Origin: Candidatus Omnitrophota bacterium
GTDB lineage: Bacteria > Omnitrophota > Gorgyraeia > Zapsychrales > Zapsychraceae
Direction of reading: 5' to 3'
DNA: 60,432 bases
NCBI GenBank assembly: GCA_015233195.1
Contig: JADFYE010000014.1
Coordinates: forward strand, 1 to 60,432
Shown here in pieces: positions 26,886 to 42,722 of this stretch. The notes under the pieces were generated by a model. It had not been told where the DNA came from, did not search any database, and saw only the letters and a program-made list of their open reading frames with translations. Each line of letters opens with the position of its first letter. Position 1 is the stretch's first letter. The translations under genes were made by a program, and so were the position numbers.

Positions 26886-27590
26886 ATGCCAAAAACAAAA
26901 TCCCATTCTAATGTTGTTATAAATTTTTTAAGTGAAGCACAGGCTGCTTTGATAATTATCGTGCTCAATTGCATGATGTTTTGGTATGTTTATCATTCGG
27001 CTCTTCCTAAACCTCCAGTTCAAGATTTAATTTTATATCCCGGAAATTTATTGCGGGGTTATTTGTGGACGATACTTACTTCAGGATTCATGCACCGCGA
27101 TCTGATGCATTTATTTTTTAATATGCTCGGGATTTTAGTTTTTGGTCGGATAGTGGAAAGACAGTTAGGTGTGGCAAAAACTTTTTATGTATATTTTGGG
27201 GCGCTTTTTATATCCATGCTTTGCGCGACCATGGCGTATATGATGTTAGGCAGGAACGTGGCGCTTATTGGCGCTTCCGGCGCTCTGATGGGGTTAATAT
27301 CAGCCGCAATGTTGCTTGACCCATTTACTATTACTTATGAAATGATAATTCCTTTGCCAGTAATGTTAAAAGCCTGGCTGTTTTTTTACGCGGATTTTAG
27401 AGGGGTTTTAAGTCGGGTTAACGACGGAGTAAGCCATTTCGCGCATATATTTGGATTTTTATCAATTTCAGTTTTGATGTATTGGCTTTCCGTAAAAGAA
27501 CGCAAAAAAATGACAGTAGGATTAATCATTAACATAGCATCTTTCTTCGCGTTATTTTTGATTAGGAAATGGATATACAGTTATCTATGA
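26886..27590 (+). CDS. Rhomboid-family intramembrane serine protease
   Basis: The 234-residue protein has about six membrane helices. The catalytic serine is S131 in the GASGALMGL motif, and the catalytic histidine is H187 in SHFAHIFGF. The HRDLMHLFFNM segment is the conserved HxxxHLxxNM-like support of the active site. Rhomboids cleave membrane proteins within or near the bilayer. The substrate is unknown. The start has no obvious Shine-Dalgarno, and the stop overlaps dinB. Confidence 0.9.
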   Translation: MPKTKSHSNVVINFLSEAQAALIIIVLNCMMFWYVYHSALPKPPVQDLILYPGNLLRGYLWTILTSGFMHRDLMHLFFNMLGILVFGRIVERQLGVAKTFYVYFGALFISMLCATMAYMMLGRNVALIGASGALMGLISAAMLLDPFTITYEMIIPLPVMLKAWLFFYADFRGVLSRVNDGVSHFAHIFGFLSISVLMYWLSVKERKKMTVGLIINIASFFALFLIRKWIYSYL

Positions 27591-30572: not shown

Positions 30573-30575
30573 CCT

Positions 30576-30602
30576 CTTCCGTAACCCCCGGGGTTACGGA
30601 AG
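30576..30602 (+). terminator. Perfect 27-base palindrome after the PLD gene
   Basis: CTTCCGTAACCCC (30576-30588) is the exact reverse complement of GGGGTTACGGAAG (30590-30602), separated by a single C. The hairpin is very stable but lacks a proper T-run (GTCCTCTTG follows). It may therefore be a weak or Rho-assisted terminator, or an insulating palindrome just ahead of the giant-gene promoter. Confidence 0.6.
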
Positions 30603-30608
30603 GTCCTC

Positions 30609-30636
30609 TTGACAACTCTTATTTATATGGCATACT
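30609..30636 (+). promoter_or_regulatory. Promoter of the giant-gene pair
   Basis: A perfect TTGACA (30609-30614) is followed after 16 bases by CATACT (30631-30636), four of six -10 matches. Transcription would start near 30643, leaving a leader of about 30 bases with AGGAG at 30664-30668. It directly follows the palindrome that closes the previous unit. Confidence 0.65.
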
Positions 30637-30674
30637 TACACTCCATTTATTTAATTATTATATAGGAGATGGAT

Positions 30675-33600
30675 ATGCTCAAACGTCTTATCAGTTCATT
30701 TGTTTTAACTGCATTTTTATTCACCAACCTTTTTTCCGGAACAGGTTATGCTCAAGTAGTATTACCAATGCCCGGTACAATGTTGACTCCGACTGCGGTG
30801 TATAATCCTGCAATGATCCGAGGGGTGAATATTGACCCAAACAATCCGCTTAAGTTTGATTTTATTCTGGATCGCGGCGATAAAGTATTATCCGATTCTG
30901 ACTTTAAACTAGAATCAAGTAAACTGGTTAAATATTTCCTCGCTGCTTTAACTGTCCCGCAAAAAGAAATGTGGGTCAACCTTTCTCCGAACGAGCCAGA
31001 CCGTATTATTCCAGAAAATTTTGGCAAGACTGAAATGGGTCGCGATGTTTTAGCACAGGATTATTTATTGAAACAGCTGACTTCTTCTTTAATGTATCCC
31101 GAAAATGAATTAGGCAAAAAATTCTGGTCAAAAATTTATGAAAGAGCAAAAAAAGAATTAGGCACAACTGACATCCCGACTGATACCTATAATAAAGTTT
31201 GGATTGTCCCGCAAGTCGCAAAGATTTACGAACATTCCAAAGGCGCGTTTATTGTATCGACTCATCTGAAGGTGCTTTTGGAAGAGGATTATTTTGCAAA
31301 GCAACAAGCACAAATTTCCAAAAGCATCCCGAGAACGCAGGACGAGGGATTACATGACGCAAAGTTAAAAGTGCAATTAATGCATCAAATTATTATCCCA
31401 GAAATTGAACGGGAAGTTAATGAGGGGGAGATTTTTGCTAATCTTCGTCAGATTTATAGTTCTATGGTCCTTGCTCTGTGGTATAAACAAGCTTTAAAAA
31501 ATTCTGCCTTAGGTCAGGCATTTGTAGACCAAAAGAAGACTTCAGGACTTGAAACTGGCGATGTAAAAGCTAACCAAAAAATTTATGACCAATATTTAGC
31601 CGCGTTTAAAAAAGGCGTTTATGATTACGTTAAAGAAGAGTATGAACCTTCAGAACAAAAAATCATCAGTCGCAAATATTTTTCAGGTGGAGTTTCCGCA
31701 GATAGAGCTCAAATTAATACAATAAGAAAATCCGATGCTGCAGTATTAAATGCAGTTGATAAACTTGGCTCCCGCGTGAAAATCGCAAGCGTTACAGTTG
31801 GCGACGAAGCAATGCTTTCCGGAACAAATGCGATGGAATTTCTTTTTGCGAGTTACGCGGATATTAAAGGTGTAATGAGAGGTTTGGAAGAGTGGAAAGC
31901 TAAGGATCGGGATGAGGCAGAACGGTTAGTGGCAATTTTTGCTAAGCTGATGCCTAAGTTAGATGAATTCGAGAGCGGAGAATATCAATTATCGTCGGAT
32001 GAACAACAATTGTTGAATAAATTTGGTGAAGAGTTTATAGGGTCTAAAGATGGTATTTTGAGTTTTTTGAAAAATTTAAAAAAATCTCAGATCGCGGTCG
32101 TTCCTCCTGGAATTGTTAAAAATGTTCATAGAGACAAGAAAGTTTTTATTACAGGCGGTGGCGGATATATAGGAAAGAACGTTGCTTATGAATTATTAAA
32201 AGCAGGTTCGGATGTTGTGCTTTATGATGTATCGCCGAGAAATGTGGAAGCATTAATTAAGGAATTTGGAGAAAAACGCGTAGAAGTGGTTAGACAGGAT
32301 ATGCGGGATCTTCACATGCTGAAAAGGGCAATGCTGGGATGCGATTCTGTGGTGCATTTAGGCGCTTACATTGCCGCAGGTGATTCTACAAAACGACCGG
32401 CTCAATATTACGATGACAATGTGTTAGCAACATTGAACTTGTTAAAAACCATGAAAGAACTGGGTATTAGTAATTTGTCATTTGCTTCCAGCGCGGGAGT
32501 TTATGATGGAATTAATTTTAATAAAAATGAAGTTTTAGACGAAACTATTCATGCTAATCCGCAAAATCCTTACGGAGAGACCAAACTCATGATGGAGCGC
32601 TTGATGAAAGCGTATGGCGAGGATATTAATTGGTTTGCTGTCAGATTTTTTAATGTGGCAGGCGCAGTGTCGTTTAGAGGACGGGATGGTAAAGAATATG
32701 TTTTGGGAGAAGATCATGATGGCGCAGAAACCCATGTTATCGCCCGAGCAATTCAATCATTAAAAGAAAATAAAATTGCATTTAAAAAATTCGGTATTGA
32801 TTATAACACTCCGGATGGAACCAATGTTCGGGATTATATTCATGTAGGCGATTTAGCAAAAGCCATTGTCCGAACTTTGGCTGTACAGTATGTTAATGCT
32901 GAAAAGAAAATGAAGACCGCGCAGATTGTTAATTTAGGAACAGGATCTGGCACATCGGTTAATGAAATTACAGAGGCGATTCTTCAAGAACATAAAGCCG
33001 CAACTGGCGAAGATTTAAAATTTAAAGATGCTCCTCGTCGTCCAGGAGATCCGGATGCTTTAAAAGCCAGCGGGCTCAATGCTTTTGTGGAATTGGGTTT
33101 TGTTCCAACCCGAGGGGTTAAAGAAATTGTTAGGAGTGCTTATAAATATCATGTAACCCATCCGATTAATATTGATAATATCAAGCAGCCAGAGGCGAAA
33201 GATCAAACCAGCGAATCAAAATATTTAGAAACAATCCGTTTATCAATTATGCAAAATAAACAAATACCTTTAGACGTTCGTTTTGAGATTTTGTATCGGT
33301 TATTTATAGATATGGTTCGCGAACCAGCAGTTAATTATCGTGTTGGGAAAGGAATGGATCCGTTTAATGACAAGCAAAAGGAATTAATCGAAAAAATTAT
33401 TCAGGCTTCAACAGTAATATTTTCAACTCCAAATGTTTCTATAAGGGAGCAAGTTGCGAATAGCATGATATTAAAAAAATTATTTATTGATTTATATTTG
33501 GATCTTAAAGAAAGTGCTAATACATTTGAAAAGTTGGATTTTACAAGAGCAATGGATAGTTTTTATTCAATGGCTTATTTAGGAGAAGATTTATTAGATA

Positions 33601-36476
33601 GTAAAAATGACGAAGCCATGATCTCTAAGCGTAAGACAGATGAAGCAGTATGGAAAGAGTGGAAAGACGTTGATGCGACTATAGTAAAGAATTTAAGAGA
33701 TTGGCTGCCGCGCGAAACATTTTTAAATTTAATGGCAGAGAAAACAAAAAATCAAGAGACATGGTGGTCCGTATATTTTAATAACTTGGGTGAGGTTATC
33801 GGATGGGAGTATCGTCGCGGTAAAGCTGTAGAATTACAGTTTAACGGCACAAGATCTGAATACGTGTTACGCGGTGATAATGATTTTGATGGGGTGATAG
33901 CAACCAGCATTAAACTTTACGACCAAAGTATTTGTTTAGCTATGGGGCCTCGTATTTCAAATAAGATAACTCCGCAGGAAAAGGAAAATGGGGCCGCATG
34001 GGTCCATGGTGATGGTTGGAAAATGCCATTCTTGGGTCAGCATGGAATTAATATGAAAACTTTCTGGCGAAATAACTGGCGATCTTCTAATTTTGCTATA
34101 GATGTAGGAGAGAAGAAATATGGCAATATTATTGGGGCTGATGGTTTAAAAAAATGGGTGCCAATAGGTTTATTTTCGCAAGCGGGTGAGCTTTCAGTTG
34201 TATTGGTCGAAAGAGGCAGTCAGATTGTAGAAGGAAAGATACCAGTTGAGCGGTATTCTTTAAAAGGTATACGATTTGGACGCGATGAACAGTTTGATTT
34301 TACGACGAGGACGATTTTAACGCAAAAAAGCGTCGGTTTGTCAGAATCAGTTTTTGGTGAATTTTATTCAGAGGAAATGGAGATCGATAATGTTTCTAAG
34401 ACCGGAGAAAAAATAATTATCCCAGTTAAAATAAACAATAAAGAGTATTCTTTAAAAATATTTAGGGATAAAGATGGCAGGTTTTTTGTTTACGAAAGTT
34501 ACTGGCTTTTTGATCTTTTTGGTGATGATAAAACAGAATTTGCAGAATTTTTTAAATTATTGGCATCGTTAGTACCTGCAAACAGCATATTAGAAAATGT
34601 TATTGACGGGATTAAAAAACAAATCGTCAAAGATCCGTTGTCATTAGTTAAAATAAATGGCTTAGGGGAAATCGATCCGTATCCAAATCCAAATTCTGAC
34701 AAGGCGATGATTATTTCTGAACCGGATAAAATTGGGATAGCGGATAAAGGTGTTAAAGAATATACCAGAGAATATCCTGTGACAGTCATTGGGTTGCGCG
34801 ACGACGTGGTGGCGTTGCGTTTAGGTTCAGACGCGCCTTTGTTCATAGATGAAAAGGATCAAATACTAGGATTTTTAGAAAAGGATGTCACACGTTTTAT
34901 AGAAAATGAAATACCCGGAAATCATCCGATTGAGGAAGTGGATAAAGTTGTTAAACAAATTAGAACATATATGGGCGTGCCAAAACTCACAGTTGTAAAG
35001 CGTGAAGCGAGTCAGTCTTCTGTTAAAGGTTTAAAAGTTACGGTTAACGTGACTTGGGATCGGGCTATGCAGTCAGCAGCGCTTCAAATTGAAGGTCGTA
35101 TATTTTATAAAGATTCTTATGGGTATGGACAAGTGTTTGCATTTATTAAAATTGACGGTCAACTTAAATATATGTTGCAATTACTTCAACATCAAGACGG
35201 TGGAACTGTATGGGGCGCATATTTGGTGCCTGAAGAGAATTTTAAAAGTAATGGAAGTATCGGAACAGAATATGCAAAATTAAGTGCTTCTGCTTTAAGT
35301 ATTAGACCCATAATTTATTTTCCTCATGATCTATTTGTTTCGGATTATACAAAAGGGAAATTAGCAAAACCAAACGATAAATATCCTTGGTTGGAAGATT
35401 TGGTTCGTCAGATTTTAACTAGGGTTTTTTGGCAAACTCAAAATGACCCTGGTATAAATTTGCAAAAAGTTGCTTGGGCGTTTAATTTGCCAGTGGCGTT
35501 AGGTGATTTGTCTTTTAATGGAATAATGAGGAAACAAGTTTCGGTAGAGGTTTCAGACGATGAAGGTTTTGTGAGGAGTAATGTGAATTTTTATGAAGGT
35601 GATGTTGGTGATATAAAAATAACGAAAGTTGATAATGGATATCGGGTATATTATCAAACCAGAGCAAGCAAAGATTGGTATTTGATTGGCGCAATTGATG
35701 AAAATTTGGTAGGAGATGAAAATTTTAATGCGTGTACTAAATCAAAAATGTGGCTAACTGAAGCAGTAAAACAAACTATTGAGCAGGCACAAAAACTTGG
35801 CATGACCATTACCAAAGATGCTGCAATGATGAAAGCATCACAACCGCCGAATCAGTTTAATGGACCATACGTCAGAGAGGTGGCAGGACAAAAGCAAGTA
35901 GTGGCTTTTGTTAATATTTATGGCTTAAATAATTATATGTTGCAGTTGGTAGCTGAAAATAATGGTTGGCATGTTTTAATGGTTTCACAAGATTATTATG
36001 TTCGGTCTATGGGAGAAAGTCTGGGCACAATAGCTTCGAGAATGGAAATAGAGTCGAGAAATGATCGTATAAAACAAAAATATTTTCCTGCATTATGTAT
36101 AGTTGGGCTTAAAGGGTTTTATATTAATGGTGAGCTTTCATCACACGACAGTATTAAAACAGACTTTCCGTGGTTAGAACAGTTAGTTAGTGAAGTTTTA
36201 GCAAAACTTCCGAAAGATAAAGCCGCATTAGTAAAAGACGGTGGTATAGACTTGAATAATACTAATCTCGACGTGAATAAAGTTGAAGGTGGTTTTAAAA
36301 TTAATGCGGATGCTGCAATGATCCAGCAAATTCAAAATGCTACTGGTTTAGTGCCGGTTAGGATCGATATTTTTACAGTCGGGAATTTACGATTATTGCT
36401 GGGTTTGTCGGATACAACAACGCCGTCAGTTGCGTCGGACGAATCGTCGCCGATGGATAGGAAAGTTAATAGTTAA
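30675..36476 (+). CDS. Giant exported(?) modular protein with GalE-type epimerase domain
   Basis: The start at 30675 is chosen because AGGAG lies six bases before it; the ATG at 30669 abuts AGGAG. The 1933 residues are ordered as follows. A Sec-like signal peptide (ending GTGYAQ) leads a conserved N-terminal domain (about 40-345) with LVKYFLAALTVPQKEMWVNL, EPDRIIPE, EREVNEGEIFANLRQIY and RKYFSGG. A full NAD-dependent GalE-like domain (about 487-830) has TGGGGYIG, ASSAGVYDG, YGETK with Y near 632, and VRFFNVAGA. Helical and beta-rich regions follow, with a duplicated unit (about 1474-1587 and 1725-1846), GGIDLNNT at 1856 and a hydrophobic C-terminal box. D-x-A-M occurs at 377, 979, 1342, 1462, 1715 and 1879. 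The overall function is unknown. Confidence 0.8.
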   Translation: MLKRLISSFVLTAFLFTNLFSGTGYAQVVLPMPGTMLTPTAVYNPAMIRGVNIDPNNPLKFDFILDRGDKVLSDSDFKLESSKLVKYFLAALTVPQKEMWVNLSPNEPDRIIPENFGKTEMGRDVLAQDYLLKQLTSSLMYPENELGKKFWSKIYERAKKELGTTDIPTDTYNKVWIVPQVAKIYEHSKGAFIVSTHLKVLLEEDYFAKQQAQISKSIPRTQDEGLHDAKLKVQLMHQIIIPEIEREVNEGEIFANLRQIYSSMVLALWYKQALKNSALGQAFVDQKKTSGLETGDVKANQKIYDQYLAAFKKGVYDYVKEEYEPSEQKIISRKYFSGGVSADRAQINTIRKSDAAVLNAVDKLGSRVKIASVTVGDEAMLSGTNAMEFLFASYADIKGVMRGLEEWKAKDRDEAERLVAIFAKLMPKLDEFESGEYQLSSDEQQLLNKFGEEFIGSKDGILSFLKNLKKSQIAVVPPGIVKNVHRDKKVFITGGGGYIGKNVAYELLKAGSDVVLYDVSPRNVEALIKEFGEKRVEVVRQDMRDLHMLKRAMLGCDSVVHLGAYIAAGDSTKRPAQYYDDNVLATLNLLKTMKELGISNLSFASSAGVYDGINFNKNEVLDETIHANPQNPYGETKLMMERLMKAYGEDINWFAVRFFNVAGAVSFRGRDGKEYVLGEDHDGAETHVIARAIQSLKENKIAFKKFGIDYNTPDGTNVRDYIHVGDLAKAIVRTLAVQYVNAEKKMKTAQIVNLGTGSGTSVNEITEAILQEHKAATGEDLKFKDAPRRPGDPDALKASGLNAFVELGFVPTRGVKEIVRSAYKYHVTHPINIDNIKQPEAKDQTSESKYLETIRLSIMQNKQIPLDVRFEILYRLFIDMVREPAVNYRVGKGMDPFNDKQKELIEKIIQASTVIFSTPNVSIREQVANSMILKKLFIDLYLDLKESANTFEKLDFTRAMDSFYSMAYLGEDLLDSKNDEAMISKRKTDEAVWKEWKDVDATIVKNLRDWLPRETFLNLMAEKTKNQETWWSVYFNNLGEVIGWEYRRGKAVELQFNGTRSEYVLRGDNDFDGVIATSIKLYDQSICLAMGPRISNKITPQEKENGAAWVHGDGWKMPFLGQHGINMKTFWRNNWRSSNFAIDVGEKKYGNIIGADGLKKWVPIGLFSQAGELSVVLVERGSQIVEGKIPVERYSLKGIRFGRDEQFDFTTRTILTQKSVGLSESVFGEFYSEEMEIDNVSKTGEKIIIPVKINNKEYSLKIFRDKDGRFFVYESYWLFDLFGDDKTEFAEFFKLLASLVPANSILENVIDGIKKQIVKDPLSLVKINGLGEIDPYPNPNSDKAMIISEPDKIGIADKGVKEYTREYPVTVIGLRDDVVALRLGSDAPLFIDEKDQILGFLEKDVTRFIENEIPGNHPIEEVDKVVKQIRTYMGVPKLTVVKREASQSSVKGLKVTVNVTWDRAMQSAALQIEGRIFYKDSYGYGQVFAFIKIDGQLKYMLQLLQHQDGGTVWGAYLVPEENFKSNGSIGTEYAKLSASALSIRPIIYFPHDLFVSDYTKGKLAKPNDKYPWLEDLVRQILTRVFWQTQNDPGINLQKVAWAFNLPVALGDLSFNGIMRKQVSVEVSDDEGFVRSNVNFYEGDVGDIKITKVDNGYRVYYQTRASKDWYLIGAIDENLVGDENFNACTKSKMWLTEAVKQTIEQAQKLGMTITKDAAMMKASQPPNQFNGPYVREVAGQKQVVAFVNIYGLNNYMLQLVAENNGWHVLMVSQDYYVRSMGESLGTIASRMEIESRNDRIKQKYFPALCIVGLKGFYINGELSSHDSIKTDFPWLEQLVSEVLAKLPKDKAALVKDGGIDLNNTNLDVNKVEGGFKINADAAMIQQIQNATGLVPVRIDIFTVGNLRLLLGLSDTTTPSVASDESSPMDRKVNS

Positions 36477-36501
36477 TCGATTTATAAGAATCAGGATATA
36501 T

Positions 36502-39500
36502 ATGTTTAAACGCCTTATCAATTTAATCTTTGTGACGGCGTTTTTAATCAATAATCTATTAGCCGGCACAGGATACGCGCAAATGCGTTTATCGGCTTTG
36601 GCTCCAATGATTAACTCTGTTCCCGTGCCTCTGATCAAAGGCTTGCGTGTTGACCCCCAGCAGCCATTTAAGTTCGAATTTGTAGTCGATCCTAATGGTT
36701 CTACGAATAAAAATGATATCCAGCTTCTAATCAAATATTTTCTTGCTGGTTTAACTATTCCTGAAAAAGATTTATGGGTGAATTTGTCTCCCAAAGAACC
36801 GGACCGAATCATCCCTGAGGCGTTTTCTCAGACGGATATGGGAAAAGGTTTGCTTGAACAGGATTTCATATTAAAACAAATGACCAGCGCCATGATCCTG
36901 CCTAATAATAAATTGGGCAAGGAATTTTGGGAAAAAATTTATGAGAAAGCATATGAAACGAGAGGTAAAGAGGGAAAGGATTCCCTCTCCAGCCTCTGGG
37001 GAGAGGGTAAGGGTGAGGGGATTTTAAATAAAGTATGGATTATCCCCGATAAAGCAGTTGTATACGAAGGAAATAATACTGCGTATGTTGTAGAAGCAAA
37101 GTTAAAAGTGATGACGGAAGAAGATTATTTAGCTGGTGGTAGCCCCGTAAAATCGCTACGCGATCACGGGGTTTTAAATTATCAGACATTTTTAAAAAAT
37201 ATAATTATCCCCAAAATCGAAGCTGAAGTCAACGAAGGTCCTCAATTCGCCCAGCTCCGTCAGATCTATCACTCACTCATCCTTGCCATGTGGTTTAAAA
37301 AGAATTTGCAAAATCATATTATCAATAAAGGCTATTCTGACCGCAATAAGGTCGACGGTATTAATAATAATGATCCGCAAGCAAAACAAAAAATTTATGA
37401 CGCGTATTTAAAAGCGTTTACCGACGGCGCAAACGCGCTCATTAAAGAAGACTACGATCCTAATACTCAACAGATCGTACCGCGTAAATACATTTCCGGC
37501 GGGCTGGATTACACGCATTTTGATTCTGCAATGACGGTTACACAGGATAAAGCTATGGTTCCTGCAGAGCAGGGCTTAGTGTTGGTCAAGTCTGGCATAT
37601 TATCATCAGACAGCAAAATAGAAGAAACAGATGCGGCTATGAAAGTCCAAACAATTTTGGATCAGCAGAAAAAAGCTGGTTTGTATGTTTGGTCTGATGA
37701 TATTTCGCGGAAAGGTGCCCCGAACGGAGAGATAAATGATTTTGATCCATTCTTTGTGAAAAAATATGATTTTATTGATTTCATCATGACTCCTTTATCG
37801 AATAAAGAAGATATTTTGAAACGTCAAACTGCAGTTAAAGTATTTTTGGGACTTCCTGAAGAAAAACGTAGAAAATTAAGTCGAACGATCAATGATACAC
37901 TCAGGTGGTTTGAAGCGTACCAATTTTTTGGTCAATATACGTCGGATGAAGATGAAGTTTTTTCGCAGGATGAAAGGATCCCGCTACTTCTTCAGCGGAA
38001 GAAAAAAATCGGTAAAGATTATTTACAGAAAATAGCAGAGTATGAAAAAAAGGAAGGGTCTGATTGGTATTTGCGTCAAATTAATTATGGGGACCTTGAA
38101 CGGGATGCGCATGCTATGTTTAAAAGAATATTGACCCTTGATTCCGCGTTTGAGCGATTTTTTGATGAAATCCGTGAAATAGGTGATCCTTTGTTAACAC
38201 AATTGGCAGAAGATATATCAGCCATATTGAAAAAAACAAAAATGCCGTCTATTGAGGAGATTCTTGAAATTGCAAAGCGCGGGGATGAAAAGGCGCTCGA
38301 TAAAATTTTCAATAAGGTTCAGGATTCCGAAGAAATATTCGGGCAAATGATGATGTTCATTAATTTTGCGGACATGGTCAAAGAGATGCATTTTCAAGAA
38401 GCCACATATGATGATGAAAAACCTGCTGGGTATAAGAATGGTTGGATGTTTACAGATTCCCGGGATAAACAGGTTGTAAATAATTCCCCTGAAGATATTC
38501 CGGTTGCGGTTTATACAGGAAGCCAAATGGCTGGGAAATCGTATCAATTAAAACAGAATTTTTTTATCCAGCTTCTTGGGCAGTCAATGGGTTTTGTTCC
38601 AGCGGAGAACGCGAATATCCGTATTTATCAGAGTCTTGCGTTTTTAGATCGTCCGAGGACGCAGGCGCTCTATGACTTAAGTGCGTTTCAGGTAGAAATA
38701 AGAAATTTACTACCTGTGGACCGGAATAAAAAACACCCTTTGTTATTATTTATGGATGAGGGATATTCTACGACGTCACCGAATGAGCAGACCAGATTTT
38801 TGATAGGGACGCAAAAATTTGTTGAATCTTTTCAAGGGAGAATGCGTGTTGCCACGCATAATGAAGAATATATCCAGTGGGCAGAGATACAGCCTTTAAC
38901 ACGAATATATCACCCAGAGGTGATATTAAAGCCTGATGGAAAACCGGATTACAAAAGAAAGATTCTGCCTGGATCAGGAGATTCTTTGGCTATAACGGTT
39001 GCAAGATCTGAAGGTTTACAAAAAGAGATATTAAGCAGGGTCGAACGGTACCATGAACAAAATGGACAACTTGAACCAGTTGCGGATATTAAAAAAACAA
39101 TAAATCCTCTCACTCAATATTCAGAAGAAGAACGCGCTATATTAAAACAACGATCAGAGAGTTTTACCGGATTTTTACCTTTGGATAATGAACTGGTCAT
39201 TGATGATCAAGGACACGGAGGGAAAAATACTTTACGTTGGAAAGATCCGAAGCATAGTTCTCGAGAATCATCATTGTCCAGGTTTTTTGATCTGGACGAA
39301 AAAAGAGTAGCAGCTGCGTATCCGCCTAACGGTATTTTTTATCCATATTCCAAAGATAAGCATTGGTCTGATGGACAGCTTCAAGAAGGGATGAGTACTA
39401 TTATAAGCCGGATGTTGAAGATGGGCGCAACGAGTGATCCTAAAGAATTATTAGAGCGCCAGAAAATGTTTGAGTTGTTATCATCCAGTAAAATAGACAA

Positions 39501-41901
39501 TCTTTTCAGTCAGACAAAATTTTTGCATGGACTTATGCTAGTGCTTTTAAAGCTTGAGGATTTTGATGCGGGCGCTGTTAATTTTGCTTTATTAAATTAT
39601 CCTGAAGCAGAACAAATGTGTTTTCACAAAGAGAATGGAATGTTTTATCGAGGAGAACATCTTATAGAGAGTGGCATGCGGCAATTCCTGCAGATCGCAA
39701 AAGCGGTCATGAGTTTTTCAAAATATAAGGAAGATGCTATGGGGCTGACAGGTTATTTAGATACGATCGAAGAGTTAATGACATTGGATCGCGATCGGGA
39801 GATATTGTATGCCCAGATAAGCGAAGCGTATAACGAGGCAGTAGAAGAAATTTCAAAAGATCTGGATTGGAAAAAAAATCCTGACCGTGCGCATGAGATT
39901 TATCAGAAGTTTAAAGAAGATTATAATATAGATATCCAAGTAAGGAAAAAAACTGAGGTAGTAGAAAATCGGATCAATGAATTGATACTGCAAATTTCAT
40001 CTCTTCATAGAAATGAACAGGATTCTCTTGCAGCCTTGGAATGGTCGGGTTTAAGGGTATTATCATTAAGAGGGGATGATTTACTGATAAGAGCAACGCA
40101 GTATAGAGCTAATGACGATTCTTTATCGCAAGAAATAGCTTTTGCTGTAAAAACGAATTTGAAACAGTTTATAAGTGAATACCTTCGGATAGCGATGCCC
40201 GTCTCTATTTTAGATGCGGATTCGTCATTGCGCGAAAAAATCTTTCAACTTTTGAATCCAGCGGCTTCTTTGATTGCGGCAGATTTGATGAACGAGGCAG
40301 GACTTTCTATGTCGCTTAAGTTAGTATCTATGCCGCCGATCGCGGTTAAGTCTGTATTTATTAATTTTTTGGTTGATGATAAAGGTCCTTTACAGAGGCT
40401 TTTAGACGAGATGCGTTCTTATGATTCTGTTCCTTTGCATCAGATGAGTAATTATTTTGAACAATTATTCAGATATTATTTTAACGGAAAAATAAAGGGA
40501 TCGGATTATTTAGAAGATATAAAGGAAAATTATGACCGTTATAAGGAAATTCAAAATACAATAGAACAACTTAATACGGTTGTTAGTGTGTTGAATGACC
40601 GTGAGGTAGATAAAAAAGAAGTGATGGGACAACTCAGAGATCTTATCAGCAATCTTCGTCCGAAGCATCAAAATTTTGAAGTCGTATTTGAGTTAATAGA
40701 CAGGATCGCCGCAGGTGCGATCGCTTGGGATGGAAATCTTGATGTTATTTTAGGGGACTTGGATTCTCAGCATAAGGGAAAACGAGTAGGGGCTATGAAT
40801 ATAGGTGAATTATTAAGTAAGGTGGTTCCGCTAAAATATGAAGAATTGTCTGTGCAGTTATCAGCTATCGCATGGAATAGATCTTTTTTGGATTCTGGAA
40901 AAATAGATGAAGAAGAAAAAATTGCTGAAGAGTTATCAAAGTGGGAATCTATTCTAGAATTTGCAAAGATGATTCGTAGCGAACAATGGGCGAAAGTTGA
41001 ATTTACAAATGAGTCGGTTATGGAAGCGCGCAATGCGTGGAATGTCGCGAAAAAGAAAGCAGAACAATCCGGAGACCGCAGGCTGAATTTTAGGATTGAC
41101 GAGCGCGAAAGAGTGAGAATATATGCGTCTACCAATGGTTCGGGAAAAACATTTGCTTTGAAAACACAAATATGGCTGGCATTAGCCGCGCAAGTTACCG
41201 GCTTTGCTCCGTGTGATTTTATGCGCAGTCAAATTTTCAGCGGTATATTTTATATTGACCGTCCTGGTTCTGACGGATATGAGATAACTTTAAGCGCGTT
41301 CGGACGTGATATGAAGAACTGGAAGGATTATTTAAGCCGCCGGGCTAATATTCATGGGCCGGTATTAACTGCCATTGATGAAATTGCTTCAACCACATCA
41401 CCGACGTATCAGGAAGCATTCGCGTATGGGTTCAGCGAAGATCATTTAGAGCGGGGAGATTTTTTGTCTATCGCGACTCATAATGAGCAGTTTGTGGATG
41501 CATTTTCAAGGATTAATGGACGTCACACGGGAGTTTATCATTTTGAAACAGAAATTACGCCTGAAGGCGCAGTGAATTATCATTACAAAGTTGAGCCAGG
41601 TATGGAACCGAGTAATGCGCTGGCTGTTGCGAAAGCGCAAGGGCTTAAACGCATAGCAAATTTTGTTGAAAAAATTCCGTTGAAAGATGCGGGCGATAAA
41701 GCGCAAGTTTCATCGATTAATGGTGGGATTGATTTGCAGAATACGTCAGCACAGTTGCAGCAGTTTGGTAATCCCGCGAACTGGTCGATGTCAGATATTG
41801 AGAAAAATTTCGCGGCGTGGCCTGGAGTGAAATCAGTTATTTTTTCAATTATCCCGTTAAATGATTTGAATGGATTTTTGGCTGGTATACCTGTTATTTA
41901 G
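36502..41901 (+). CDS. Giant exported(?) protein with two MutS-like ATPase modules
   Basis: The ATG at 36502 yields the signal peptide MFKRLINLIFVTAFLINNLL followed by AGTGYAQ, parallel to the preceding gene. Upstream ATGs give an implausible arginine-rich leader. The N-terminal domain (about 40-335) matches its neighbour (KYFLAGLTIPEKDLWVNLSP, EPDRIIPE, EVNEGPQFAQLRQIY, RKYISGG). D-x-A-M occurs at 341, 349 and 377. Then come two MutS-type modules. Module 1 has a lever segment PLSNKEDILKRQ (about 430), Walker A TGSQMAGKS (672-680), GFVPAE, Walker B D752-E753 and ATHNEEY. Module 2 has DPKELLERQ (about 978), STNGSGKT (to 1550), GFAPCDF, D1626-E1627 and ATHNEQ. It ends with GGIDLQNT (1741) and a hydrophobic tail. 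No mismatch-recognition domain was seen. Confidence 0.82.
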   Translation: MFKRLINLIFVTAFLINNLLAGTGYAQMRLSALAPMINSVPVPLIKGLRVDPQQPFKFEFVVDPNGSTNKNDIQLLIKYFLAGLTIPEKDLWVNLSPKEPDRIIPEAFSQTDMGKGLLEQDFILKQMTSAMILPNNKLGKEFWEKIYEKAYETRGKEGKDSLSSLWGEGKGEGILNKVWIIPDKAVVYEGNNTAYVVEAKLKVMTEEDYLAGGSPVKSLRDHGVLNYQTFLKNIIIPKIEAEVNEGPQFAQLRQIYHSLILAMWFKKNLQNHIINKGYSDRNKVDGINNNDPQAKQKIYDAYLKAFTDGANALIKEDYDPNTQQIVPRKYISGGLDYTHFDSAMTVTQDKAMVPAEQGLVLVKSGILSSDSKIEETDAAMKVQTILDQQKKAGLYVWSDDISRKGAPNGEINDFDPFFVKKYDFIDFIMTPLSNKEDILKRQTAVKVFLGLPEEKRRKLSRTINDTLRWFEAYQFFGQYTSDEDEVFSQDERIPLLLQRKKKIGKDYLQKIAEYEKKEGSDWYLRQINYGDLERDAHAMFKRILTLDSAFERFFDEIREIGDPLLTQLAEDISAILKKTKMPSIEEILEIAKRGDEKALDKIFNKVQDSEEIFGQMMMFINFADMVKEMHFQEATYDDEKPAGYKNGWMFTDSRDKQVVNNSPEDIPVAVYTGSQMAGKSYQLKQNFFIQLLGQSMGFVPAENANIRIYQSLAFLDRPRTQALYDLSAFQVEIRNLLPVDRNKKHPLLLFMDEGYSTTSPNEQTRFLIGTQKFVESFQGRMRVATHNEEYIQWAEIQPLTRIYHPEVILKPDGKPDYKRKILPGSGDSLAITVARSEGLQKEILSRVERYHEQNGQLEPVADIKKTINPLTQYSEEERAILKQRSESFTGFLPLDNELVIDDQGHGGKNTLRWKDPKHSSRESSLSRFFDLDEKRVAAAYPPNGIFYPYSKDKHWSDGQLQEGMSTIISRMLKMGATSDPKELLERQKMFELLSSSKIDNLFSQTKFLHGLMLVLLKLEDFDAGAVNFALLNYPEAEQMCFHKENGMFYRGEHLIESGMRQFLQIAKAVMSFSKYKEDAMGLTGYLDTIEELMTLDRDREILYAQISEAYNEAVEEISKDLDWKKNPDRAHEIYQKFKEDYNIDIQVRKKTEVVENRINELILQISSLHRNEQDSLAALEWSGLRVLSLRGDDLLIRATQYRANDDSLSQEIAFAVKTNLKQFISEYLRIAMPVSILDADSSLREKIFQLLNPAASLIAADLMNEAGLSMSLKLVSMPPIAVKSVFINFLVDDKGPLQRLLDEMRSYDSVPLHQMSNYFEQLFRYYFNGKIKGSDYLEDIKENYDRYKEIQNTIEQLNTVVSVLNDREVDKKEVMGQLRDLISNLRPKHQNFEVVFELIDRIAAGAIAWDGNLDVILGDLDSQHKGKRVGAMNIGELLSKVVPLKYEELSVQLSAIAWNRSFLDSGKIDEEEKIAEELSKWESILEFAKMIRSEQWAKVEFTNESVMEARNAWNVAKKKAEQSGDRRLNFRIDERERVRIYASTNGSGKTFALKTQIWLALAAQVTGFAPCDFMRSQIFSGIFYIDRPGSDGYEITLSAFGRDMKNWKDYLSRRANIHGPVLTAIDEIASTTSPTYQEAFAYGFSEDHLERGDFLSIATHNEQFVDAFSRINGRHTGVYHFETEITPEGAVNYHYKVEPGMEPSNALAVAKAQGLKRIANFVEKIPLKDAGDKAQVSSINGGIDLQNTSAQLQQFGNPANWSMSDIEKNFAAWPGVKSVIFSIIPLNDLNGFLAGIPVI
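36981..37022 (+). repeat. GC-rich hairpin repeat inside the second giant gene
   Basis: The first 28 bases (beginning TTCCCTCTCCAGCCTCTGGG) are identical to the intergenic copy at 24249. The repeat is read in frame as DSLSSLWGEGKGEG at about residues 161-174. The paralogous giant protein has an unrelated, shorter linker (LGTTDIPTDTY) at this place, so this is an insertion between conserved segments that preserved the frame. Confidence 0.85.
37143..37171 (+). repeat. Second palindrome inside the second giant gene
   Basis: CCCCGT (37143-37148) pairs with ACGGGG (37166-37171), and ATCGC (37152-37156) with GCGAT (37160-37164) around TAC. It encodes SPVKSLRDHG in a linker that is not conserved with the paralogue. 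It looks like a different REP-type palindrome that inserted in frame. Confidence 0.6.
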
Positions 41902-42722
41902 AATTTTACTTCCGTCCACACTGGCAGATGGTCGCTGGGTCTCAGGTTTATAACTTTGCCTTTTGCAACAGTATTAAATCCTTTGGTGTAAATGTGGTCG
42001 AGCTGGGTTTTTCTACCTAATGCGAAAGTCCAGCCAAGGTTTGCCGTGGATTCTTGAAAATCATATTTTTTGAATGCGGTATTTATTTCTGCCCGGTCTT
42101 TTTTTGTAAAACTGTTGAAATCTCCACCTACGATTGCATATTTAATATCTTCAGGAATGTTTTTTACTACTAGATCAATTCTTTGTTTACGGTCGCTGGG
42201 TTTTACGAATACGCCTAGATGCACACAAAAAACCCTGATTTTTTTATCATTAACGTATACGGTGGCGCCTACCGCGATCCTCTGTTTTTGATTTAATTTA
42301 AAATGCGGCAGAATGATTTTTTCATCATCAGACATTTTCCATTTTGATAATATTGCGTTGCCAAAATCCTTATCATTATGTTGGTGCAAAACTGCCGGAT
42401 AATAAACATAATTATATTTTAATTCTTTGGCTATTCGTTTTACTCCAACCTCGTCCATTTCTTGTAAAAGTAAAATATCCGCGTCTTTTAAATTAGGTTC
42501 GGATTCTAGTAATTTAATCGCCTGAGTTATTTTTTTGGAGAATTTAATGTTATATGAAACAACCTTTATGGTTTTTTTGATTTCGGTTGGAGGTTTTAAA
42601 GTTGCAAGTTGGGCATAACGCGGACGGTCAGTTTTAGTGTAGTTAAAAAGATAGTTTTTGACACTGCACCCGCTTAATGCCAATATATAAATCACAAATA
42701 AGGACATATTTCTAATTCGCAT
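41898..42722 (-). CDS. Endonuclease/exonuclease/phosphatase-family lipoprotein
   Basis: A 274-residue protein has a lipoprotein signal (MRIRNMSLFVIYILALSGC, lipobox LSGC), followed by an EEP fold: VVSYNIKF, LLLQEMDE (metal-binding E), NAILSKW, CVHLG, GGDFNSF (catalytic D-x-N) and the C-terminal SDHLPVW (catalytic D-H). Members cleave phosphodiester or phosphomonoester bonds in nucleic acids, phosphoinositides or sphingolipids. The substrate here is unknown. It would be lipid-anchored outside the cytoplasm. The gene converges on the second giant gene and overlaps its end by four bases. Confidence 0.85.
   Translation of the reverse strand: MRIRNMSLFVIYILALSGCSVKNYLFNYTKTDRPRYAQLATLKPPTEIKKTIKVVSYNIKFSKKITQAIKLLESEPNLKDADILLLQEMDEVGVKRIAKELKYNYVYYPAVLHQHNDKDFGNAILSKWKMSDDEKIILPHFKLNQKQRIAVGATVYVNDKKIRVFCVHLGVFVKPSDRKQRIDLVVKNIPEDIKYAIVGGDFNSFTKKDRAEINTAFKKYDFQESTANLGWTFALGRKTQLDHIYTKGFNTVAKGKVINLRPSDHLPVWTEVKF

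Follow-up and report, generated by a model that had tools for sequence, protein, structure and literature searches.

Constant ends and exchangeable middles in a family of giant, putatively exported Omnitrophota proteins

How do two neighboring genes come to encode giant proteins that are alike at both ends and unrelated in between, and where might such proteins act? These questions are raised by a window of 60,432 nucleotides, the whole stretch of DNA analyzed here, from contig JADFYE010000014.1 (assembly GCA_015233195.1) of a Candidatus Omnitrophota bacterium of the order Zapsychrales in the class Gorgyraeia. The 2 genes and their products, here called P1 and P2, were found to belong to a large family in which constant ends enclose a diverse and rapidly replaced set of middles. 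Our favored reading, held with moderate confidence, is that the family represents a Sec-exported repertoire of carrier and cargo proteins, with modules separated by punctuation words, that is delivered to or against other cells.

Two Adjacent Giant Genes Share Their Ends

P1 and P2 are encoded on the same strand by open reading frames (ORFs) at positions 30675 to 36476 and 36502 to 41901, which are separated by 25 nucleotides, contain no internal stop codons and specify 1,933 and 1,799 amino acids (aa), respectively, as the original prediction for this DNA had it. A BLASTP comparison aligned the 2 proteins from the start codon to the KY(F/I)SGG motif at the end of a shared N-terminal domain (N-domain), with 153 identities over 351 aa (44%, E 2e-85), and all of the motifs previously named for a common signal peptide and N-domain were recovered. 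Past the N-domain, BLASTP gave no alignment save for a short GGIDL box. This box, originally given as GGIDL.NT near the C-terminus, is present in both proteins, and the part of it that is near-constant across the family is GGID[L/F/M], located in a tail of about 60 aa. The proposal of one promoter for both genes was borne out only in that a single consensus site precedes P1, but such sites were no more frequent than expected by chance (33 found versus 36 expected in the region).

The modules assigned to the middles were confirmed. P1 contains a full-length GalE-type epimerase that scored 251.5 bits against TIGR01179, just under the cut-off of 262.3, and 170 bits against PDB 8wxk, and both the NAD motif TGGGGYIG and the catalytic Y-x3-K are present in the sequence. 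The region 3' of GalE, earlier described as beta-rich repeats, had no match in Pfam or PDB. The 2 MutS-like modules of P2 are MutS_V/MutS2-like ATPases with intact Walker motifs; their Pfam and NCBIfam matches extend over domain V and some of the neighboring sequence, and the mismatch-binding and connector domains of MutS had no match in P2. The features of the segment are as follows.

30609..30636, + strand: promoter-like match TTGACA-16-CATACT preceding P1 (by consensus only; such sites are no commoner here than chance predicts)
30675..36476, + strand: P1, putative giant carrier/cargo protein, 1,933 aa (ORF, stop included)
30675..30752, + strand: predicted P1 signal peptide, aa 1-26, ...GTGYA/Q (from the sequence and the family-wide signal peptide and +1 Gln statistics)
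30753..31697, + strand: P1 N-domain, aa 27-341 (no Pfam, NCBIfam, PHROG or PDB-fold relative)
31803..31814, + strand: D-x-A-M word DEAM, P1 aa 377
32133..33167, + strand: P1 cargo GalE, UDP-glucose 4-epimerase, with TGGGGYIG NAD site and Y-x3-K (NPYGETK)
33609..33620, + strand: D-x-A-M word DEAM, P1 aa 979
34698..34709, + strand: D-x-A-M word DKAM, P1 aa 1342
35058..35069, + strand: D-x-A-M word DRAM, P1 aa 1462
35817..35828, + strand: D-x-A-M word DAAM, P1 aa 1715
36240..36473, + strand: P1 C-terminal GGIDL tail, with DAAM inside at 36309-36320
36502..41901, + strand: P2, putative giant carrier/cargo protein, 1,799 aa (ORF, stop included)
36502..36579, + strand: predicted P2 signal peptide, aa 1-26, ...GTGYA/Q (from the sequence and family statistics)
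36580..37506, + strand: P2 N-domain, aa 27-335 (from alignment to P1 and the family)
37522..37641, + strand: 3 D-x-A-M words of P2, DSAM at 37522, DKAM at 37546 and DAAM at 37630
38284..39057, + strand: P2 cargo 1, MutS-type ATPase, Walker A GSQMAGKS, Walker B LLLFMDE
40837..41649, + strand: P2 cargo 2, second MutS/MutS2-type ATPase, Walker A STNGSGKT
41722..41898, + strand: P2 C-terminal GGIDL tail
30584..41902, no strand: segment missing in the congener G164 (empty site, synteny kept on both sides)

A Large Family Almost Confined to Omnitrophota

A hidden Markov model (HMM) built from the N-domains of P1 and P2 was run on Omnitrophota and other genomes. In the genome that contains the window (2.0 Mb, 77.6% complete), it matched 37 stretches that correspond to 33 ORFs of 521 to 2,791 aa, which add up to about 141 kb, or 7% of the assembly. 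A family limited to P1 and P2 was thereby ruled out. The GGID tail was present in 29 of the 33 ORFs; 3 others were cut by contig ends and 1, L038, had no tail. The 4 tail hits without an N-domain in this genome all ran off contig ends. Both ends were also found in 53 of 58 complete relatives from other genomes, with the tail located 0 to 52 aa from the stop codon, and were kept in family proteins of up to 5,005 aa. The pairwise identities of the N-domains and the tails were correlated (Mantel r 0.35, P 0.0005), and the 2 ends therefore tend to travel together.

Among public genomes, the N-domain was encountered almost only in records named Omnitrophota, and the link to this phylum, as originally proposed, was thus right. 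It was found in 56 of 193 sampled Omnitrophota genomes, all of them from the class of the window, including 22 of 23 from its order, and up to 82 first-look N-domain candidates were counted in a single genome. More distant families of the class contained 1 to 8 copies, in which the scheme is kept but the box is shortened to GID and the SSP words described below are often present; these distant members were checked for an ancestral function and gave no functional clue. The few remaining N-domain records are named "bacterium", Planctomycetales or Elulimicrobium, names that probably reflect naming or binning errors; those under the latter 2 names (L060, L073, L117) are probably Omnitrophota. With HMMs for the N-domain and the tail, a family of at least hundreds of genes becomes searchable, classifiable and testable.

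A signal peptide with a signal peptidase I site was identified by a strict heuristic in 108 of 119 family proteins, and in most of the others one can be discerned by eye. Gln occupies position +1 at 81 of the 108 predicted sites, and the few other signal peptides of the same genome, a small sample, do not follow this pattern. The +1 Gln rule (Q-rule) has been described as specific to Bacteroidetes (PMC5837995). Hydrophobic stretches past the N-domain are rare across the family and mostly borderline, and many of them lie in the tail.

The N-domain measures about 310 aa, and the N-domains of the family are 34% to 70% identical to that of P1. Neither the N-domain nor the tail had a relative in Pfam, NCBIfam, PHROGs or PADLOC; the PHROGs and PADLOC matches of P1 and P2 concerned the epimerase and MutS parts only, and the PADLOC match was weak (E 3e-4).

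It was also noted that, in many paralogues, short DNA repeats (for example CCCTCTCCAGCCTCTGGGGAGAGGGTNAGGGTGAGGGG and GTAGGGGCACGATACTTCGTGCCC) have been inserted into variable loops of the N-domain without breaking the frame. At least 7 repeat families were distinguished, often palindromic and reminiscent of Rickettsia palindromic elements, with sites in the window at 36985-37023, at about 31329 and in P2 near SPVKSLRDHG, and further sites in L033, L036-L039, L042, L044, L045, L048-L050 and L052-L055. At the other end, the first gene of tandem family pairs has a similar extra tail past the GGID domain (SSPMDRKVNS, YGQLPMDNMNKQS, IGQLDPIDKRVNRS), located at the ends of P1 (36474), L034 (10920) and L051 (6237).

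The Middles Are Unrelated and Rapidly Replaced

The conserved ends and exchangeable middles proposed for P1 and P2 are a property of the family: dozens of proteins per genome carry the N-domain, with dozens of unrelated middles and almost always a GGID tail, and the frames are intact in nearly all copies. An N-domain that occurs only with the middles of P1 and P2 is excluded. In the genome of the window, the recognized middles comprise GalE, MutS (2 modules), UDPGP (UTP-glucose-1-P uridylyltransferase), PGM (phosphoglucomutase), GDH (glutamate dehydrogenase), shikimate dehydrogenase and methyltransferase, as well as GHKL ATPase (HATPase), RIO/protein kinase, FHA, aldo-keto reductase, PEP-synthase-type ATP-binding and adenosine deaminase modules. 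Those of the relatives include PGI (phosphoglucose isomerase), PGK (phosphoglycerate kinase), 4-alpha-glucanotransferase, acyl-CoA dehydrogenase, GH116 and ankyrin repeats, and also ABC1 kinase, RmlD, starch synthase, CofD, fructose-bisphosphatase and others. For about half of the middles, no match was obtained. Only 3 of 528 pairs of middles within the genome, and 42 of 7,021 pairs overall, shared any stretch of sequence.

Several cargoes duplicate enzymes of central metabolism. All good genomes of the order have a PGK that stands alone and measures about 400 aa, and a stand-alone PGI, where found, is about 430 aa long; the PGK and PGI modules in the giant frames are additional and of a different type, that is, extra and divergent copies beside the housekeeping enzymes. 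Order-wide, the cargo PGI scored 630 to 680 bits in Pfam versus about 75 to 106 bits for the stand-alone PGI, and on these scores the cargo would be of a foreign, classic bacterial/eukaryotic type. Some cargoes are near-native, such as a PGI that matched a Vibrio enzyme with 612 bits. All complete giant frames with PGK or PGI that were opened carry both ends, as exemplified by the order signal peptide, N-domain, PGI, D-x-A-M, PGM, D-x-A-M and tail. The enzyme types are patchily distributed across genomes, with the PGI cargo in 5 of 81. As a separate observation, the zinc metallopeptidase-type motif HExxH was enriched in the middles of the relatives (L059-L137), with 15 occurrences in 12 proteins versus 2.0 expected.

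The pace of replacement is apparent from a comparison with the congener G164, whose PGK is 93% identical and which contains 28 family ORFs. Only 2 of the 33 middles have a counterpart in G164: L053, which aligned with L236 along 1,764 aa at 42% identity, and P1 in its GalE portion, with 31% identity. Since both genomes are incomplete, a few missed orthologues would be expected, but not 31. The N-domains of the 2 genomes are up to 78% identical, and pairwise similarity ends at a median of 14 aa past the GG of the KYFSGG motif. About 7% of a small genome is spent on giant, putatively exported proteins whose cargo is almost wholly different from that of the congener.

At the P1-P2 locus itself, G164 has an empty site: its PLD gene directly abuts the endonuclease/phosphatase gene, and synteny is kept on either side, with the genes there 51% to 90% identical. 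The sequence CTTCCGT occurs at both borders of the segment (30574-30583 and 41903-41915) and the congener (L246) has one related copy, which may reflect a microhomology deletion or a target duplication. A gene for a rhomboid-type intramembrane protease is located upstream of the pair (26886-27590); this gene is conserved in G164 even though P1 and P2 are missing there, and no link to the pair is therefore implied.

Punctuation Words Lie between the Domains

The D-x-A-M tetrapeptides were originally placed after the N-domain. They are indeed enriched, P1 having 6 and P2 having 3 where shuffling predicts 0.2 per protein, but their placement is broader, since they recur between modules and inside the tail. 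The 33 family proteins of the genome contain 100 such words versus 4.9 expected, and the remaining ORFs of the window together contain 1 versus 1.5 expected; the shuffles and these other ORFs rule out chance occurrence. The Asp and Ala codons of the words follow background usage, which indicates that the words have been selected as peptides and not spread as DNA, and an origin as a DNA repeat was rejected on the same grounds. None of 56 words in the proteins with recognized domains falls inside such a domain (P 8e-8), with the domains covering 25% of the length, a lower bound because undetected domains exist.

In other genomes, SSP[VI] takes the same positions, and the 2 words are nearly exclusive by genome, with some genomes having neither. 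Lineage-specific words of this kind offer a direct handle on processing. This replacement, the between-domain placement of D-x-A-M and the extent of cargo turnover are points that go beyond the original prediction.

Export, Delivery, and Alternative Explanations

The signal peptides with signal peptidase I sites, the Gln at +1 and the rarity of hydrophobic stretches past the N-domain argue for export by Sec. A shared delivery, anchoring or processing route had been proposed for the pair: the signal peptides together with the constant ends speak strongly for a common route, but delivery past the periplasm, anchoring and processing reach beyond the sequence evidence. We envisage that signal peptidase I would remove the signal peptide, leaving Gln at +1 in most proteins, and that passage across the inner membrane by Sec would be followed by a second step that recognizes the N-domain, the tail or both, such that the constant ends may serve as the address labels of a common route. 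The words would most likely be recognition or cleavage sites at which modules are released or separated. The cargo would then consist of enzymes that require the cytosolic cofactors NAD, ATP and UDP-sugars, in a set that is particular to each genome and quickly renewed. Enzymes that depend on NAD, ATP or nucleotide sugars would be idle in the periplasm, and their place of action is therefore most likely outside the producer, the most plausible sites being host, prey or competitor cells, either within them or on their surface.

A host-dependent lifestyle has been proposed for Omnitrophota (PMC10066038). Together with this proposal, the need for cofactors and the genome-specific repertoire make delivery to or against other cells the best reading. 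A more specific version is tentative: the 2 ends would form a two-part address for a dedicated transporter, the words would be cut by a co-evolving protease, and the enzymes would reprogram neighboring, host or prey cells, which would amount to a new delivery system of the Omnitrophota. If the proteins do act on other cells, they would offer the first concrete candidate mechanism by which host-dependent Omnitrophota deal with their partners, an open question in the field, and whole enzymes of central metabolism would serve as exchangeable payloads.

Several observations weigh against this reading. No secretion machinery is linked to the family, and folded multidomain enzymes on a 15-kb scale are demanding substrates for Sec. 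In searches run without a positive control, SprA of the type IX secretion system (T9SS) had no match in the 77.6%-complete genome and an ATP/ADP translocase was not found in 29 family genomes, the latter of which, as an uncalibrated search, removes one sign of intracellular parasitism. The AlphaFold2 model of the N-domain (mean predicted local distance difference test score 73) had no PDB fold match at E <= 0.001, and the model of the tail was of low confidence, with a predicted template modeling score (pTM) of 0.24. Furthermore, several cargoes are eroded, as in the PGK cargoes, which have kept 70 to 97 of the 166 residues that are invariant in stand-alone PGK.

The partial erosion of PGK catalysis would be easier to understand if the proteins were exported and then retained at the envelope or surface of the producer as a hypervariable coat, an adhesin or a decoy, which might for instance ward off phages or predators, with the modules acting as binding or structural domains. 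The signal peptides and constant ends fit this explanation equally well, the presence/absence variation and the near-total turnover between congeners suit a diversifying surface, and an adhesin role has been put forward for giant ORFs of the Omnitrophota (PMC10066038). However, full-length catalytic cores such as GalE and the near-native PGI would be needless in a mere coat, and a membrane anchor is lacking, given how few hydrophobic stretches follow the N-domain. We regard such a coat as somewhat unlikely, though the strongest of the alternatives.

A less probable explanation, which we consider doubtful, is that the ends spread as a unit that traps fragments of host and foreign genes, so that the cargoes are mostly transient, have little function and are open because their capture was recent. 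The resemblance of the cargoes to extra, often foreign-type housekeeping copies, as with the PGI scores, the extremely fast turnover and the partial or diverged domains (PGM represented in Pfam by domain I only, PGK with inserts) are what gene birth by capture would produce. Yet almost every copy has an uninterrupted ORF, 800 to 5,000 aa in length, that in nearly all cases closes with the tail, and the words lie only outside domains and in lineage-specific form, which argues for continued selection on the whole protein.

The recurrence of central-carbon and glycogen-type cargoes (PGI, PGM, PGK, UDPGP, GalE, starch synthase and glucanotransferase) could hint that the proteins are sent to a compartment inside the producer, or one derived from its periplasm, with a metabolic enzyme set of its own; such a compartment should hold a stable set, whereas the set differs almost completely between congeners and the enzyme types are patchy across genomes, which renders it very improbable. 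That the middles are homologous and merely evolve too fast to be recognized, as many long bacterial proteins do and as the L053-L236 alignment along most of its length might suggest, is already largely excluded by N-domains of 60% to 78% identity beside middles without similarity, by the abrupt end of similarity shortly past KYFSGG, and by recognized modules from different superfamilies.

Relation to Known Systems

Polymorphic toxin and effector systems combine a constant trafficking region with an exchangeable payload, and occur as many paralogues in strain-specific repertoires. The family shares with them the constant export region, the exchangeable payload, the number of paralogues and the strain-specific repertoire. 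In polymorphic toxins, however, the payload is a toxin domain at the extreme C-terminus, whereas the family has a constant tail in this position, so that both ends are constant, and its payloads are whole metabolic enzymes, kinases and ATPases. No immunity gene is evident beside P1 and P2; the flanking PLD and endonuclease/phosphatase genes are also present where the pair is missing, and in the comparison with G164 no gene travels with it. Immunity proteins for the cargo could be located elsewhere.

The T9SS cargo proteins of Bacteroidota resemble the family in having a Sec signal peptide with Gln at +1 and in sharing a conserved tail at the C-terminus despite being otherwise unrelated, but the family has a conserved N-domain in addition and GGID in the tail. 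An Ig-like fold, as in the T9SS C-terminal domain (CTD), was not predicted for the tail in the low-confidence model (pTM as above), and P1 and P2 had no Pfam or NCBIfam match to a recognized T9SS CTD family (Por secretion tail) or to any other T9SS family. The family appears to work like a repertoire of polymorphic effectors or T9SS cargo, but because some of the defining features looked for in each system were absent, it is set apart from both. Likewise, the GalE and MutS/KamC/MutS2 modules are recognizable members of their families with intact nucleotide-binding motifs, but are located inside multidomain proteins that appear to be exported. The family belongs to the general kind of exported proteins with constant trafficking parts and a variable payload, and there is a real chance that it represents a new kind. 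It seems to be a means, so far undescribed, by which these bacteria export a rapidly changing set of enzymes.

Giant ORFs are known from Omnitrophota. They are described as mostly longer than 20 kb and rich in transmembrane segments (Seymour et al. 2023, PMC10066038), and gigantic multidomain proteins with polysaccharide enzymes, kinases and methylases are mentioned (PMC12419801). The proteins studied here agree with them in phylum, in being very large and multidomain, in containing enzymes, kinases and methylases, and in a suspected role in cell contact, but the family members are mostly soluble and 800 to 5,000 aa in length. P1 and P2 themselves, at 5.8 and 5.4 kb and without predicted transmembrane stretches past the N-domain, fall outside the giant-ORF definition of more than 20 kb with multiple transmembrane helices. 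A shared N-domain, GGID tail, words and cargo turnover are not named in the accessible portions of the 2 papers. A literature search on giant ORFs, effectors, signal peptides and C-terminal domains in Omnitrophota, which did not extend to most subscription journals, likewise returned no description of the N-domain, the tail, the punctuation or the turnover. Finally, an open frame of 8,222 aa in another genome (G215:C56; L214, L248), with no N-domain in the 5' part examined, carries a PGK-like domain and represents another kind of giant protein.
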